Shown here: piece by piece, positions 14,657 to 26,998 of the stretch
Position numbering within the stretch: the stretch's first letter is position 1
How the letters are laid out: each line of letters begins with the position of its first letter
NCBI GenBank assembly: GCA_009843815.1
Contig: VYCS01000008.1
Location: 1-54,540 of the forward strand
DNA from: Cenarchaeum sp. SB0675_bin_21
GTDB taxonomy: Archaea; Thermoproteota; Nitrososphaeria; Nitrososphaerales; Nitrosopumilaceae
DNA: 54,540 bases
Direction: 5' to 3'
Position numbers and translations under genes: made by a program
The notes under the pieces: generated by a model
What the model was told of the DNA's origin: nothing
Seen by the model: only the letters and a program-made list of their open reading frames with translations
The model's database searches: none

Positions 14657-14681
14657 GGTTCCTCCCGCAAAGTCGGGTGAT
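14657..14681 (+). repeat. Left terminal inverted repeat (25 bp)
   Basis: Begins GGTTCCTCCCGCAAAGTCGG and is the exact reverse complement of 16248-16272. It overlaps the start codons of tnpB. It contains a small hairpin, CCCG-caaagt-CGGG. Confidence 0.9.
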
Positions 14682-16248
14682 GGTTGATGTGTTGTTGGAT
14701 AGTGTTAAATACGTTATTAAACCGTACTATATGATGGCTCTTGTAAAAAATAGTAGGGCAATAACACGTACATACACAAAAAATTTGGGTATGCAGTACG
14801 TGTTTGAGCATGTCAGGAAGGTGGCAGAAGTGGCGTACATTATAGCAGATAACACGGGGAAGAATACCTATGGTGTTAACGCATTGATGTATCGTACAAT
14901 GCGCGGCCCTGACCCCAAAGTACATTCGTCCATAACGCAGACCGCCATACGGGACGGGGTTGCCGCCCATAAAACGTACAATACAAAGACTGCGCAGGGC
15001 ATGAAGGTATCTGAGCCCGTGTTTCGCAATCCGGTTGTAAAGTTGAAAAACCAAAATTGGAGGCTGAATCCGATAGCGGGTGGATATATGACTATTGCAA
15101 ATGTTGGCTCATCAAAACACCCACATATGATAGCAATTCCCATCTCTTCAGATGTGGTACGCCGCATAGGACAAAATGAGTTGGGCGAGTTGTGGATCAC
15201 GCCGACCACATACACCATAACGTATTACAACAAAGTGCCCGAGGTTGACAAGCCCCACCCATACGGCAAGTCAGAGATTATCGAGTTGCTTACGGATGTG
15301 GGGTATGTGGGCGGCACACCAAAGGATGTAATTGGCGTAGATATCAATGAAAAGAATATCACCGTAGGAGATAAAGATACAATGGTACGGTTTGATCTAT
15401 CCGATACGATACAGGCCATTGAGGACGCAAAGACTGACGATGCAAACAATACGTATACCCGTACGCATGATAATGCCGCATATGCGGCACGTACCGGAAG
15501 GCGTGTTGTACACAAAAAAGAGGAGGAGCGCAGAGAAAAACAACAAGTCGTGTGTGGCGGTCATAAATTATACAACAAACTCAAACGCAGATACAGGAAA
15601 CTCAAGAGGGAGGGCAAACACAAGAGGGCCGCGGAGATAAAGAAGCAGATGAATAAATGCATATTAAACATACAGCATAACCACACAAAGTCAAAGAAGA
15701 ATGCTAAAAAGCGCAAGGTAACTAAAGCCGTGCGCCACCACGAACATGGGCTGAATGTGATGGCACTATGCATCGCACAGTGGGCCGCACAGTCTGGGTG
15801 TTTGGTGGTGTTGGAGGATTTAACCCGCATATCGTATAATTGGCAGAAGGGTGGAAAGTTTGGCCATAATATGCGTCGCAGGTTACATTCTGCCATGATG
15901 CGAAAGGCATCAAATTTAATTTATGAAAAGTCCCGGTTTTTGGGAGTGGAGGCATTACATATGCGTCCACACAACACATCCAAGCTATGTGCTGTATGTA
16001 GAACCCCACTAACTGGAACTTATCATAAAAAAGACTACACCCACTGCCGTACAGTTGGCGTAGATCGTGACGTCAACGCAGTGGAGAACATACGGCGAAC
16101 AAGCGCCGTATCCCGGTATGGTCGTAAGGTTTCGGCCAGTCTGGGCGAAGTCCGTCGTGGTGTGGATGTAATCCTCGATCCCACACCACTCATACAGGGT
16201 TGCTGGAGCAACTGGGCTGACAGACTATCCCGCATAGCGGGGGTGTAA
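14677..16248 (+). CDS. tnpB: TnpB-family RNA-guided nuclease
   Basis: A 523-residue TnpB homologue, longer than the usual 350-450. The RuvC catalytic acids are D222 (GVDINEKNITV), E380 (VVLEDLTRIS) and D465 (DRDVNAVENI). A basic coiled segment (KLYNKLKRRYRKLKREGKHKRAAEIKKQ) precedes the second motif. The zinc finger is irregular: CAVC is intact but the second half reads THCRTVG, lacking one cysteine. The N-terminal about 200 residues do not match the standard wedge start. Start and stop codons fall in the terminal inverted repeats. An omegaRNA would be expected from the 3' end. Confidence 0.88.
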   Translation: MMVDVLLDSVKYVIKPYYMMALVKNSRAITRTYTKNLGMQYVFEHVRKVAEVAYIIADNTGKNTYGVNALMYRTMRGPDPKVHSSITQTAIRDGVAAHKTYNTKTAQGMKVSEPVFRNPVVKLKNQNWRLNPIAGGYMTIANVGSSKHPHMIAIPISSDVVRRIGQNELGELWITPTTYTITYYNKVPEVDKPHPYGKSEIIELLTDVGYVGGTPKDVIGVDINEKNITVGDKDTMVRFDLSDTIQAIEDAKTDDANNTYTRTHDNAAYAARTGRRVVHKKEEERREKQQVVCGGHKLYNKLKRRYRKLKREGKHKRAAEIKKQMNKCILNIQHNHTKSKKNAKKRKVTKAVRHHEHGLNVMALCIAQWAAQSGCLVVLEDLTRISYNWQKGGKFGHNMRRRLHSAMMRKASNLIYEKSRFLGVEALHMRPHNTSKLCAVCRTPLTGTYHKKDYTHCRTVGVDRDVNAVENIRRTSAVSRYGRKVSASLGEVRRGVDVILDPTPLIQGCWSNWADRLSRIAGV

Positions 16249-16393: not shown

Positions 16394-17560
16394 ATGATAA
16401 AAAGTGTGGAAAGCGTATGTGTTTTGGGTGCGGGAAGTACAAAGTATGGAAAGTTAGATGATAGCATAGTAGACATAACCGTACAGGCATCAGCAGATGC
16501 AATAAACAGTGCAGGAATAGAGCCTGCCGACATAAAGGCCGGATACATATCCAATGTATTTGGCATAGCAGACAAACAAGTGCATCTAGGACCTGTAATT
16601 ATGAGTAACCTTGGTATTTCAGACAGACCATCATTATCCATAGAGTCCGCATGTGGCAGTGGCTCTGTCTCGTTTAGGGAGGCATATGCCAATGTGGCGG
16701 CAGGATTCTACGACTGCCTATTGGTAGCAGGTACAGAGAAGGTCACCCACACCGGTACCGAATGGACTACCACGTACTTTGCATACTGCTCAGACTTCTT
16801 CCATGAAGGGTCTGCAGGCGCATCGTTCCCAGGACTGTTTGCAGCCATGGCACGTGCCTACCTGACCGAATTTGGCGCCACCGAAGAGGACTTTGCGCAG
16901 GTTGCAGTAAAAAACCACAACAATGGAATACTCAATCCAAAGGCGCATTTGAGAAAGAAGATAACCATAGATGATGTTATGAAATCGGCCGTGGTAGCCA
17001 GTCCGCTCAAGCTGTACGACTGCTGTCCATTCTCAGACGGGGCCAGTGCCGTCATATTATGTACAGAAGAGTTTGCCAAGAAGACAGGCGGCGACTACAT
17101 AAAAGTAACAGGATCCGGACGTGGAGGTTCGCCAGCAGCATTGCAGGGACGGGAGCACATTACAACAATTCCCAGTACAGTAATAGCATCAAGATCAGCC
17201 TACAAGATGGCAGGTATAACTGCCAAAGATGTGGACTTTGCCGAAGTACATGACTGTTTTACAATAGCCGAAATAGTAGATACTGAAGATTTGGGATTCT
17301 TTGAGAAGGGTAAGGGTGTGGAAGCTGCTCGAGAAGGTAGAACCGCACTAAATTCAGACATATCAATAAACCCCTCTGGAGGTCTAAAGTCAAAGGGACA
17401 TCCCATTGGTGCTACCGGTGTGGGGCAAGTAGTTGAGATGTATGATCAGTTAACAGGCCAAGCAGGTCCCCGGACCGTACATGATGCACATATAGGACTT
17501 ACTCATAACTTTGGAGCCACCGGGGCCAGCTGCGCCGTCCATATCTTTGAAAGTGTTTAA
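16394..17560 (+). CDS. Archaeal thiolase (acetyl-CoA C-acetyltransferase)
   Basis: A 388-residue thiolase of the archaeal SCP2-like type. The nucleophile is C87 in IESACGSGS. EVHDCFTIAE and KGHPIGATGVGQ hold the catalytic histidines. It makes or cleaves acetoacetyl-CoA. In this lineage that serves either the first step of mevalonate (isoprenoid lipid) synthesis or the last step of the 3-hydroxypropionate/4-hydroxybutyrate carbon-fixation cycle; the sequence does not decide. The DUF35 partner follows after one base. A TATA-like run (TTTTAATATA) lies about 20 bases upstream. Confidence 0.93.
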   Translation: MIKSVESVCVLGAGSTKYGKLDDSIVDITVQASADAINSAGIEPADIKAGYISNVFGIADKQVHLGPVIMSNLGISDRPSLSIESACGSGSVSFREAYANVAAGFYDCLLVAGTEKVTHTGTEWTTTYFAYCSDFFHEGSAGASFPGLFAAMARAYLTEFGATEEDFAQVAVKNHNNGILNPKAHLRKKITIDDVMKSAVVASPLKLYDCCPFSDGASAVILCTEEFAKKTGGDYIKVTGSGRGGSPAALQGREHITTIPSTVIASRSAYKMAGITAKDVDFAEVHDCFTIAEIVDTEDLGFFEKGKGVEAAREGRTALNSDISINPSGGLKSKGHPIGATGVGQVVEMYDQLTGQAGPRTVHDAHIGLTHNFGATGASCAVHIFESV

Positions 17561-17561
17561 A

Positions 17562-17927
17562 ATGTCCACTCGTCAAAAATTTATTGATGCCGCCCAAAGT
17601 GGTAAAGTACTACTATTACAGTGCAAGAGATGTAATACAATGCATACATCTACGGTGTGTTTCTGCAAAAAGTGTGGCTTCTCAAAGTTTGAGGACAAGG
17701 TAGTTCAAGGGATTGGCAAGGTAGTCACATATACCATAATTACTGTTCCACCGGCGGGTTTTGAAGAGTATACACCCTATGCGTTTGTTGTTGTAAACCT
17801 TGATGATGTAGACCAGCGAATATCTGGGTTCATGGGAGGGATCTCTACACCTGCAGATTTACCAGTGGGGTCTGCAGTCCGTGTATATGGATACGATGAG
17901 CGCGGTCTATTGATAAAGTTTCACTAA
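17562..17927 (+). CDS. DUF35 zinc-ribbon/OB-fold thiolase partner
   Basis: A 121-residue protein with an N-terminal rubredoxin-like zinc ribbon (C21, C24, C35, C38) and a C-terminal OB fold (GKVVTYTIITVPPAGFEEYTPYAFVVVNLDD ... VGSAVRVYGYDERGLLIKF). In archaea such proteins form a complex with thiolase and HMG-CoA synthase and bind CoA substrates between them. The start at MSTRQKF lies one base after the thiolase stop; the longer frame overlapping thiolase is not needed. Confidence 0.9.
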   Translation: MSTRQKFIDAAQSGKVLLLQCKRCNTMHTSTVCFCKKCGFSKFEDKVVQGIGKVVTYTIITVPPAGFEEYTPYAFVVVNLDDVDQRISGFMGGISTPADLPVGSAVRVYGYDERGLLIKFH

Positions 17928-17958: not shown

Positions 17959-18144
17959 ATGGTAATCGATGTTTATTGTGGAAAGTGCAATACAAAAATA
18001 GGATCAACAAATATACTAAAGCCCATCAAGCAGATATCTGGAGTCGAAGATGGAAAGTGTCCATCCTGCGGACATAAAGTATCACTGTCAAACTTCACAT
18101 TGGATGTAGTAAAGTCCACCTCCAAGTATGGCTCTCTAGAGTAA
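17959..18144 (+). CDS. Small zinc-ribbon protein
   Basis: A 61-residue protein with two CxxC knuckles, C7/C10 (YCGKC) and C34/C37 (CPSCG), spaced as in a zinc ribbon. It sits 31 bases after the DUF35 gene on the same strand and may be the third gene of that operon. Function unknown; a nucleic-acid- or protein-binding role is only a guess. Confidence 0.7.
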   Translation: MVIDVYCGKCNTKIGSTNILKPIKQISGVEDGKCPSCGHKVSLSNFTLDVVKSTSKYGSLE

Positions 18145-18294: not shown

Positions 18295-20193
18295 ATGGAT
18301 AAGTGGGTTGGCGATATGTTTGAAGAGCCAGAGAACGAGTCGGTCATGCCAACCCGGGTCAAAAAGATCTTTTCAGCCATGGACAGTCCCCAGAGATTGA
18401 GAATTCTTAGGGCACTAAACTCAAAAGGTCCGCTCAGTTATTCAGAGCTTAAAAGACTTGCCGGCTTTCATCCCAAAAGTGAGAGTGGTAAGTTCGCATA
18501 TCATCTGCGCAGCTTGGACAATCCGGGTCTGGTATTGTTGGACAAAAATACCAAACGGTACGACATTACTAATCTAGGAAAGATGTCCATAAGTCTGGTA
18601 AAACAGATAGAAGAAAAGTCCATTCATGAGTCCAGTCGAATGTACGTGAGAACATCTCATCAGGCCATAGAAGAGTTTAACGCAGATAAGATAATGCGAT
18701 CCTTGGTACGTGAGGGGAGTATGCCCATGGATCTTGCGCAGCGCATCACCGAAGAGACGGAGAACCGCATATACAAGTATCAGACATCTCATCTTACAGG
18801 GCCTCTAATTCGAGAGTTGGTGAATGCCGTACTTTTGGAGGGCGGACATGAAGGCTATAGGAGCAAGATGGCCCGGTTGGGCATTCCCGTGCATGATCTA
18901 CAAGAGATGCTGACAGATGTCGATAGCGTGATGGCCGGTTTAGAACACATAATGCTAACTGCAGGGCGGCGGGTATTTGTAGAGTATCTACTAACTAATA
19001 CATTGCAGCGAGATGTGGCAGACATGTATCTGTCAGGTGGCATTCACATATCAAATCTGGCTTTATGGCCACTGGCACCAGATACAATATTTCTGAATAT
19101 CAACGACATCATACCGCAGAGTGACATAAAGATATCAAGTCTAGTCAAGATGCTCAACCATGTATTGTGGGAGGCATCCAGTGAAGTTGTAATAGATGGC
19201 ATATCCAATATCGACTCAATATCGCAGTATATGGCAGACACTCTCATCATGATGCACGCACCCCACGGTGCGGCCCACCTGTCACTATATGTACCATTGA
19301 ACTCAAAGTCCATACATGGCATATTAGAGGCGTACAAGACCTATGTCAAAAGTGTGGACACTCCCACAGCAGGGCTTGTCATAGATACAAAAGATACCAA
19401 GATTGCAGAATTTTCAGACATATTATCAGATATTATAAAATGTAACGGAGTCATAACTATTACCAAACAAAAGTCTGGTAAAAGTGGTATCATAGACAGT
19501 AACGATAAGGGGGCATCAGCAAAGATGCACTCGCTGGCCATAAATCTGCCTAGTTTGGCTTACGAGTCAGAGGGTGATGAGGCGTACTTTCGGGCAAAGT
19601 TAGCAATGAGTATGGAACCCATAATATCAGCATTGGAGTCAAGACGAAAGGATATTGCCGACATTACACGTTGGGGGCTTAATCCGATTCTTGCAGAGAA
19701 CATCATAAAGCAAGAGAAAAGGTCTGTAAATATCACTATCAATTTAGTGGGAATGCATGAGGCCATGACTCACATTTTAGGAGACGATTACCCGCCCAAA
19801 ATGGTGCTCAAAGTATTAGAGACTGCCAACCATGTTGTATCAAAGATTAGTGGTAAGACAGGTCTCCCCATACTGATATCCATGATACATGCAGATGGCA
19901 TCTCCCGTCTGGTGGAATTAGACGCAAAGAAGTACGGTAAAGACAAGGTGTATAATATGCAGGATGGTAGATATCAGCACGGTGTCAGTATAGATGTACG
20001 TCAGACCATAATACCAGGACAACTAGATCGCATAATATCAAATGCAAAGAAGGCTGCTGCTGTTTTGGGCGGAGGCCTGTACACCGAATTGTCATACCAA
20101 AAGAGTACGCCGCAGTCAGATATCATACGTGGAATAGAGTTGTTATCAGATCATCTCAACTTTACAGTAAAGCTCAAACACGACTCATCTTAA
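18295..20193 (+). CDS. HTH / ATP-cone / NrdD-like fusion, probably a nucleotide-sensing regulator
   Basis: A 632-residue protein. Residues 20-110 form a winged helix of ArsR type (SPQRLRILRALNSKGPLSYSELKRLAG ... GKFAYHLRSL). Residues 116-195 form an ATP-cone (MYVRTSHQAIEEFNADKIMRSLV ... EGYRSKMARLG). The remainder resembles anaerobic ribonucleotide reductase NrdD, for example MYLSGGIHISNLALWPL near 244-260. The whole protein has one cysteine (C383) and no glycyl-radical motif or C-terminal zinc site, so reductase activity is not expected. ATP-cones bind ATP or dATP. I infer a DNA-binding regulator that senses nucleotide state. It converges on the PDCD5 gene with a 20-base overlap. Confidence 0.75.
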   Translation: MDKWVGDMFEEPENESVMPTRVKKIFSAMDSPQRLRILRALNSKGPLSYSELKRLAGFHPKSESGKFAYHLRSLDNPGLVLLDKNTKRYDITNLGKMSISLVKQIEEKSIHESSRMYVRTSHQAIEEFNADKIMRSLVREGSMPMDLAQRITEETENRIYKYQTSHLTGPLIRELVNAVLLEGGHEGYRSKMARLGIPVHDLQEMLTDVDSVMAGLEHIMLTAGRRVFVEYLLTNTLQRDVADMYLSGGIHISNLALWPLAPDTIFLNINDIIPQSDIKISSLVKMLNHVLWEASSEVVIDGISNIDSISQYMADTLIMMHAPHGAAHLSLYVPLNSKSIHGILEAYKTYVKSVDTPTAGLVIDTKDTKIAEFSDILSDIIKCNGVITITKQKSGKSGIIDSNDKGASAKMHSLAINLPSLAYESEGDEAYFRAKLAMSMEPIISALESRRKDIADITRWGLNPILAENIIKQEKRSVNITINLVGMHEAMTHILGDDYPPKMVLKVLETANHVVSKISGKTGLPILISMIHADGISRLVELDAKKYGKDKVYNMQDGRYQHGVSIDVRQTIIPGQLDRIISNAKKAAAVLGGGLYTELSYQKSTPQSDIIRGIELLSDHLNFTVKLKHDSS

Positions 20194-20443
20194 AGTCGCG
20201 GCGAGGCTGCTGAAGAGACAGTAGTATCTGTTTTAACTGCTCATCAGTGACAGGGGGACTCAGACGGCCCTGAGTCATCATGGAAAGTAGATAATTTTCG
20301 ACCTGTGTGGCCAAATCTGGTCGGACCATGCGAACATTGCCCAATCGTAGACGTGACTCGGGATTAAGGATTCGACGTAATAGTGCATCTTTTTGTGCAG
20401 CAGCTTCATTGGCCTGTTCATCATTAAATTCAGGAGTGCTCAT
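20174..20443 (-). CDS. PDCD5-type DNA-binding protein
   Basis: An 89-residue archaeal homologue of programmed cell death protein 5 (TFAR19). The core LLRRILNPESRLRLGNVRMVRPDLATQVENYLLSMMTQGRL is the family signature: a three-helix bundle that binds DNA non-specifically. It is almost always next to ribosomal protein genes, here 2 bases after rps19e. Precise role unknown in archaea. Confidence 0.92.
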   Translation of the reverse strand: MSTPEFNDEQANEAAAQKDALLRRILNPESRLRLGNVRMVRPDLATQVENYLLSMMTQGRLSPPVTDEQLKQILLSLQQPRRDFKMSRV

Positions 20444-20445
20444 AT

Positions 20446-20898
20446 CTACATGTATACCCGAAGTTTGGGATTCTCCTGTACCATCTCTTTGAGTATGTCA
20501 GTGGATAGATTGTCTAACTTTTTCATGCCTGCAGAGGTTACGACACGTCCCCTCTTATCTATCGCCTCTACCAAGCCCAACTTCTCCAAACCATGTACGG
20601 CATTGCGAATTATGGCACCACCACCAGCGCGGTGATGTGCGGCTCCATATCCAGACGGCTTTCCGCCTCCGTACTCTTTGCGCAACCTGCTAATTCCAAC
20701 AGGGCCCTCCAAGTATATCTTGCGCAGAATAGATGCGCAACGGGTGTACCACCAGTCTTTTTGATGGGGCGGTCTGTCTGCATGTACTCCAGTCTTTACA
20801 AATATCGTCCATTCGGGCTTCTCTATACCACTATCCTGCAGGTATTGTGCTGTACGTGTGATGAGCTCGTGTGGCGGTACATCATATACTTTTGCCAT
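20446..20898 (-). CDS. rps19e: 30S ribosomal protein S19e
   Basis: A 150-residue archaeal/eukaryotic-type small-subunit protein. Signature stretches are VYDVPPHELI, DWWYTRCASILRKIYLEGPVGISRLRKEYGG and RRAG-like HRAGGGAIIRNAVHGLEKLGLV. S19e is needed for late maturation of the small subunit. A TATA-like ATTTATAAAT lies about 25-30 bases before the ATG on the minus strand. It forms a two-gene operon with the PDCD5-type gene. Confidence 0.97.
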   Translation of the reverse strand: MAKVYDVPPHELITRTAQYLQDSGIEKPEWTIFVKTGVHADRPPHQKDWWYTRCASILRKIYLEGPVGISRLRKEYGGGKPSGYGAAHHRAGGGAIIRNAVHGLEKLGLVEAIDKRGRVVTSAGMKKLDNLSTDILKEMVQENPKLRVYM

Positions 20899-25816: not shown

Positions 25817-26998
25817 TTGTATAATATGAAGTACAAAGGCGAAAAGTACGTCATGAAGACTCTACAGTACCGTCTCAAGACATCCACCAGACTCACTCGA
25901 TACTTTAACTCAATGTATTCGGAATCCCACATATGGCTCAATGCAGGAATAAGGGCGCGTAAGGCTGGACTGACGGTGTTTGACACCAATAAGATAGCCA
26001 CTATATGCCAGACCATCCCCCAGGCCTGGGTTCGCGGCGCCATACGTGAAGGCCACAAGATAGAAGGCTGTACGCATGTAAGATATGGTAGGAAGGTTTA
26101 CCCCCTGTTTAGTAACGTGCCACTCGGTAAAAAATCCAAAGGTACAACGGTGTATTTCCCAAGATGTAATATACCATTCAAACTACAGAAAGGGCGTCTA
26201 CCCAATACATCCCAATCATATAAGATAGTGGATGTCACGAACACTACAGACAAGGAGAGGCAGTTCGAACTACATGTAACTATACGTGAGCATGTCCCGG
26301 ACCGCGTAGCGACGGGTGTACATGCTGGTATTGATATGGGTGGTAAGCACACGCTTGTTGTTGGAAAGTCCGATGGTAGTATTGCTATGCTGACATTACG
26401 TGAGAAGGATACTATACGGAACATAGCGCGTATGCAAAAGAAGATGAGTAGGTGCAAACTTCACTCCCGTAAGTGGCGCAACCTGCATGATACATTAAAC
26501 AGCATATACCGTAAGTTGGGAAATAGACAGAAAGACAAGCTGCGCAAGTTCTCAAAGAAACTAATGCGACAGTGTGATAGAATAATCATGGAGGGGATGA
26601 ACCTCCGTACAATGACGACCAAGGGTCCCGGGCAGACGCCCAAAAATCGTACGATGCGACAAAGTCATTGTGGTGAGGCGCGGGAGCACATTTCACAACA
26701 ATACCTACGATATAATGTAGAATATACGGAGATAAACCCAAAGAATACCTCAAAACAGTGCTGTATGTGCGGTAGTTTGAATACGTGACGCAAGAGCAGT
26801 AAGTTTAGGTGTCATAACTGCGGTATAGTGTGTCATGCGGACATCAATGCGGCATTCAACATACTTTTCGCTTTTCGTATTATACAGTGGAGTAAGCGCG
26901 CTCAGGGCGTGTATTCCCTACAAAACAAGGCTGGAATGGTCTTGAGAGGAAAGATACATCTCGCGACACTTACTATACCCAGTGTCGTGGTGATGTGA
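25817..26998 (+). pseudogene. tnpB: TnpB gene interrupted by an in-frame TGA
   Basis: The first 323 codons encode a typical TnpB: N-terminal MKTLQYRLKTSTRLTRYFNSMYSES, RuvC aspartate in GIDMGGKHTLVV, glutamate in IIMEGMNLRT, and the first zinc knuckle CCMCGS. A TGA at 26786-26788 follows NT. The same frame then continues RKSSKFRCHNCGIVCHADINAAFNILF, which supplies the second knuckle and the third RuvC aspartate, to a stop at 26996-26998. The TGA probably replaced an Arg CGA codon. Without readthrough the product lacks the third catalytic acid, so the gene is probably dead but recently so. Confidence 0.88.

Follow-up and report, generated by a model that had tools for sequence, protein, structure and literature searches.

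A candidate RNR-linked archaeal regulator built on an inactive NrdD scaffold

What does a protein do that joins a DNA-binding domain to the body of a ribonucleotide reductase (RNR)? The question is raised by a 54,540-nucleotide stretch of DNA from Cenarchaeum sp. SB0675_bin_21 (contig VYCS01000008.1), referred to below as the window, which encodes a protein of 632 aa at 18295..20193 (+). The gene is supported by its open frame, by Pfam matches, by the predicted fold of its product and by purifying selection. Relatives are present in 60 of 61 genomes sampled from genus to order level (G042 being the one without the gene), and dN/dS against the nearest homologue is 0.14 (G000 versus G002), so that a chance open reading frame can be set aside. 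Selection acts on the NrdD-like body at dN/dS 0.14–0.21 and on the winged helix and ATP-cone at 0.06–0.07, the latter two being the best-conserved parts of the family protein. An Rfam search of the window returned no match.

Domain make-up, fold and distribution

The original prediction described a single 632-residue chain of winged helix, ATP-cone and a body resembling NrdD, the class III anaerobic RNR, and both the Pfam matches and the fold obtained with AlphaFold2 and Foldseek agree with this description. The winged-helix DNA-binding domain occupies residues 24–97 (18364..18585 (+); PF24038 (DUF7347), E 4.4e-9, above the curated cut-off, with support from conservation) and was modelled as helices with a two-stranded wing; its recognition-helix segment is KSESGKFAYHLR, and K61 as well as G65 to R72 are invariant across 129 Nitrososphaeria proteins. 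It is followed by the ATP-cone at residues 116–188 (18640..18858 (+); PF03477, E 1.4e-6, above the curated cut-off), which aligns with the cones of NrdR, NrdD and NrdJ. The NrdD-like body, at about residues 206–600 (18910..20094 (+)), was delimited using Pfam, Foldseek and a comparison of alignment columns with 30 true NrdD, and contains an NRDD match (PF13597) at residues 411–593 (19525-20073; E 7.2e-15, above the curated cut-off). The remaining C-terminus (20095..20193 (+)) is shortened, stopping just ahead of a zinc ribbon that is found in most relatives, as judged from the alignment, the counts and the list of open reading frames.

In the PDB, the top Foldseek matches of the AlphaFold2 model of the window protein (pLDDT 81.8, pTM 0.69) were class III RNRs (9d3x, E 4.9e-17) and covered nearly the whole chain, with a query TM-score of about 0.5 and a different orientation of domains. 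A deeper homologue of 782 aa (pLDDT 84.7) was superposed on T4 NrdD with a target TM-score of 0.78 and an rmsd of 3.8 Å over about 600 columns, and the 10-stranded barrel fold of class III RNR is present, both by Foldseek and in this superposition. While a PDB search with the single sequence of the window protein yielded nothing useful, a profile of the family detected NrdD in the PDB by sequence (E 2.6e-13). Taken together, the Foldseek matches, the superposition and the profile match place an NrdD fold beyond residue 200, as the original prediction required.

Across the phylum, relatives were detected in 237 of 300 genomes, some by weak matches alone, and several families with complete genomes yielded no relative in this survey; the family reaches across much of the phylum, and its proposed restriction to Thaumarchaeota could not be upheld. 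Named records with the gene include Nitrosopumilus, Nitrosarchaeum, Nitrosopelagicus, Nitrosotenuis, Nitrosotalea and Cenarchaeum, and the nearest relative of the window protein is that of Cenarchaeum sp. SB0662_bin_33 (74%), which hints at a sponge-symbiont origin for the window. An archaeal gene at 45% identity was also found on a contig labelled Phycisphaerales bacterium (L097), probably a MAG binning error. Additionally, a viral contig (IMGVR_UViG_3300006094_000039, L321:3001-5373) carries a 24%-identical relative whose match begins after the winged helix, and which is perhaps a viral NrdD.

Catalytic residues and the zinc ribbon

We compared catalytic columns in an alignment of 24 Nitrososphaeria members, 19 deeper homologues of the phylum and 30 true NrdD. 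The thiyl-radical cysteine and the second active-site cysteine, invariant in 30 of 30 true NrdD, are absent at the aligned columns in 43 of 43 family members, all of which have lost the NrdD-invariant active-site cysteines C187, C392 and C393 (numbering of the L195 protein). Similarly, the invariant asparagine columns of the NxN flap, which binds substrate in Prevotella NrdD (PMC11226230), are gaps or not conserved in the family, and the radical-glycine motif RxxGYL occurs in 0 of 147 family proteins; one deeper homologue has a glycine at the radical column by alignment, still without RxxGYL. The structural residues N417, P419, D543 and Y560 are retained. The window protein itself lacks the thiyl cysteine, the second active-site cysteine and the NxN flap, contains just one cysteine (residue 383), in line with an earlier count, and scores far under the cut-off of the NCBI NrdD equivalog model.

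These losses extend the proposal of a catalytically dead NrdD scaffold to the family as a whole, and no homologue with intact radical and thiol residues was seen among the 43 aligned members or, for RxxGYL, among the 147. A branch with 100% support separates true NrdD from the family in a tree of the NrdD region (made by a quick method, unrooted and with several long branches), which is consistent with a single origin of the dead-NrdD family. Although the NRDD match and the NrdD fold might suggest an anaerobic reductase that still works, or has specialised, and that carries an added DNA-binding domain, the missing catalytic residues allow this reading to be dismissed, and a class II RNR is present in every genome sampled in the order.

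Most relatives (125 of 147, made up of 110 of the 129 Nitrososphaeria proteins and 15 of the 18 deeper ones) retain the C-terminal CxxC...CxxC, a distribution indicating an ancestral zinc ribbon that the window's lineage has since lost. Both the window's genus and Nitrosopelagicus lack it, through separate losses. The window protein thus lacks radical glycine, thiyl cysteine and structural zinc site alike, as had been predicted for it, whereas zinc loss does not define the family and was rejected as a family trait on the count of relatives with the ribbon. In open-ocean Nitrosopelagicus loci (L010, L056, L061, L064, L066 and others), the regulator lacks the ribbon independently of the window's genus.

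Gene linkage and the window's locus

We searched the same 61 genomes with the NrdJ of the window's genome and compared gene positions. Of the 60 genomes of the order that carry the family gene, 54 have it immediately before nrdJ in the same orientation. Three of the exceptions (G000, G001 and G002) are the window's genus, two (G046 and G059) have the gene at a contig end, and in the sixth (G048) nrdJ is adjacent yet past the distance cut-off because only parts of NrdJ were matched. The gap between the two genes is commonly about 200 bp in Nitrosopumilaceae, and nrdJ may therefore well have its own promoter. In four deeper families (f40, f50, f54 and f42) it is nrdD that lies downstream of the gene in the same orientation, and in a fifth (f31) it is nrdJ. 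A glutaredoxin-like gene is placed between regulator and nrdD in f40 (L215:5233-5559, with the same placement in L220 and L221). NrdR was detected above cut-off only in family f18 (13 of 200 genomes), beside nrdD in several of those; no genome of the order reached that cut-off, and the window's genome had no TIGR00244 match; f18 carries both NrdR and a dead-NrdD family member, showing that the two are not strictly exclusive.

The conserved position upstream of nrdJ, and of nrdD in deeper lineages, with pyrBI nearby, supports the link to nucleotide supply that had been suggested for this protein. On sequence evidence, we consider it likely that this family, with its dead NrdD as scaffold, comprises archaeal RNR-linked transcription regulators that are NrdR-like in action. 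An alternative, which would also account for the adjacent nrdJ and nrdD and for the retained dimer-type NrdD fold, is a protein-level partner of RNR: its catalytically dead body would bind to, or assemble with, the active enzyme and adjust its activity, and the winged helix would act as a protein contact or as a DNA tether. We regard such a partner as unlikely, since the winged helix is among the best-conserved parts, with an invariant recognition-helix segment, and since a family coupled to both nrdJ and nrdD, whose products differ in the folds surrounding the barrel, is more easily explained by gene control than by a single docking surface.

Improbable, too, is a regulator of broader reach, acting on genes of nucleotide metabolism or growth (those for pyrimidine synthesis and perhaps others), with RNR as one target or as a chance neighbour. 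Such a regulator is suggested by pyrI near the family gene in 12 of 28 deeper families, by a carbamoyltransferase (mostly pyrB) in 13 of 28, and by ATP synthase, NAC and other housekeeping genes nearby in some; the carbamoyltransferase cluster mixes aspartate and ornithine enzymes, so that the pyrB count is an upper bound and the pyrI count is cleaner. Yet most pyrB genes run convergently to the family gene, which is weak evidence of a link; the pyrB and pyrI promoters inspected by eye revealed no shared element, and the partner within the order is always nrdJ.

In the window, the regulator gene follows a thiolase gene (16394-17560 (+)), a gene for an OB-fold ChsH2-like protein (17511-17927 (+)) and a gene for a small CxxC...CxxC protein of 61 aa without a Pfam match (17959-18144 (+)), the first two identified by Pfam and all three recovered by tblastn in other loci. 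This order is common to other Nitrosopumilaceae, in many of which the small CxxC...CxxC protein is encoded directly upstream of the regulator. On the other side, the regulator's stop overlaps by 20 bp a convergent gene for a PDCD5-like DNA-binding protein (20174-20443 (-)), beyond which lies the likewise convergent gene for ribosomal protein S19e (20446-20898 (-)), both assigned by Pfam. Other genera have nrdJ at this position; the arrangement seen here recurs in the two other members of the window's genus, and PDCD5 sits elsewhere in other genera. This side of the locus is likely a rearrangement break, and a break at the 3' end of the regulator would explain both the truncated C-terminus and the lost nrdJ linkage in the genus. 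Two IS605/OrfB (TnpB-like) transposase genes (14677-16248 and 25817-26788 (+)) are found within 12 kb of the regulator, matching OrfB_IS605 above the cut-off and a Cas12f1-like TNB domain just below it; these mobile elements may be related to the rearrangement.

The window's genome encodes no other NRDD protein; ribonucleotide reduction falls there to a class II enzyme, an ATP-cone-bearing NrdJ encoded on a different contig. With nrdJ unlinked, any control in this genus would act in trans, and the lost linkage lowers our confidence in a regulatory role there. A relic, deprived of partner and zinc ribbon and losing its function, would account for the unlinked nrdJ in all three genus members and for the cut C-terminus, but the low dN/dS between G000 and G002, frames intact in all three, and the example of Nitrosopelagicus, which also lost the ribbon yet keeps the nrdJ linkage, make a decaying gene very hard to credit.

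Candidate DNA site, nucleotide sensing and proposed mechanism

An imperfect inverted repeat, TGTnAA-N5-TTGA, was found in 66 of 114 regulator-nrdJ intergenic regions at a near-constant distance, about 100 bp upstream of nrdJ, compared with 0.3% of shuffled intergenic regions, a contrast that is too strong because the intergenic sequences are related. Upstream of nrdD, L216, L219 and L220 carry the related TGTCAAWWTTT (chance 0.2-0.5% each, for a pattern picked after the sequences had been seen). As a hypothesis, we propose TGTnAA-N5-TTGA as a candidate binding site of the regulator; its placement upstream of a TATA-like box leans towards activation, without fixing the sign of control.

The element is common genome-wide, and genome-wide specificity was set aside on the modest excess of matches over a reversed control. 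Allowing two mismatches, matches in the window were at chance, and for the unlinked nrdJ of the window's genus no convincing copy was seen in the upstream region. Nor was the element found in front of the regulator gene itself, which led us to reject autoregulation through it. Further palindromes are conserved in the regulator-nrdJ intergenic regions (L058, L059, L294 and others), namely TATGAAnTTCATA in 33 of 114 and CGATCATCG in 32 of 114.

NrdR, a bacterial RNR repressor of about 150 aa with a zinc ribbon and an ATP-cone, offers the closest parallel in design: both it and the archaeal family join a DNA-binding domain to an ATP-cone, and both are encoded beside RNR genes, nrdJ included. NrdR has its zinc ribbon at the N-terminus, where the family has a winged helix, and lacks the NrdD-sized body that the family adds. 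In Streptomyces, where nrdR likewise precedes nrdJ, residues K50, R51 and E56 of NrdR contact the inner nucleotide and K62 the outer one, and mutants of V48, K50, E56 or K62 lose nucleotide and DNA binding (PMC9110341). The family ATP-cone keeps V118, E126 and K132 (K or R), corresponding to V48, E56 and K62, whereas T120-S121 replace K50-R51 in nearly all members; with these contacts replaced, it is doubtful whether the cone reproduces the ATP/dATP switch of NrdR unchanged. The altered cone may bind a different ligand from NrdR, or sensing may have passed to the former specificity site.

With NrdD, the family shares its fold and an ATP-cone N-terminal to the body, and most relatives also have the zinc ribbon at the C-terminus, but the family has lost all radical and active-site cysteines, the NxN flap and the radical glycine, and has gained a winged helix. 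ArsR-like archaeal winged-helix proteins (DUF7347, HTH_20) resemble it in their N-terminal DNA-binding domain, but their effector is a small dimerisation or metal-sensing domain, in contrast to a dead reductase. Judged by these features, the family falls outside the NrdD enzymes and outside NrdR. A search of the open-access literature returned no description of a dead-NrdD regulator family, and we found none of how ammonia-oxidising archaea adjust DNA-precursor synthesis.

For the RNR-linked regulator, we propose a mechanism in which a class III reductase would have lost its chemistry and come to carry an N-terminal winged helix. An NrdD-like dimer with its ATP-cone would bind nucleotides, and this binding would alter the seating of the winged helices on DNA beside the RNR gene. 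RNR expression would then track nucleotide supply, with nrdJ as the presumed target in Nitrososphaeria and nrdD in several deeper lineages, and the regulator would take the place that NrdR, absent from the order, has elsewhere. More tentatively, the family could represent an RNR turned transcription factor, an ancient archaeal regulator using the complete NrdD scaffold as a nucleotide sensor, possibly reading beyond ATP/dATP through the former specificity and active sites, and wired to whichever RNR class a lineage uses.

Ammonia-oxidising archaea are very abundant in the ocean and in soil. Occurring throughout a large group of archaea, and nearly always directly upstream of a working RNR gene, the family is probably a dedicated controller of DNA-precursor supply where NrdR is absent, and with one candidate gene beside nrdJ almost order-wide, the control of this supply in ammonia oxidisers becomes directly testable. 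If true, this would be a clear case of a dead copy of a central metabolic enzyme regulating its own pathway, and one in which the dead-copy regulator stayed with that pathway although the RNR class differed (nrdD or nrdJ).
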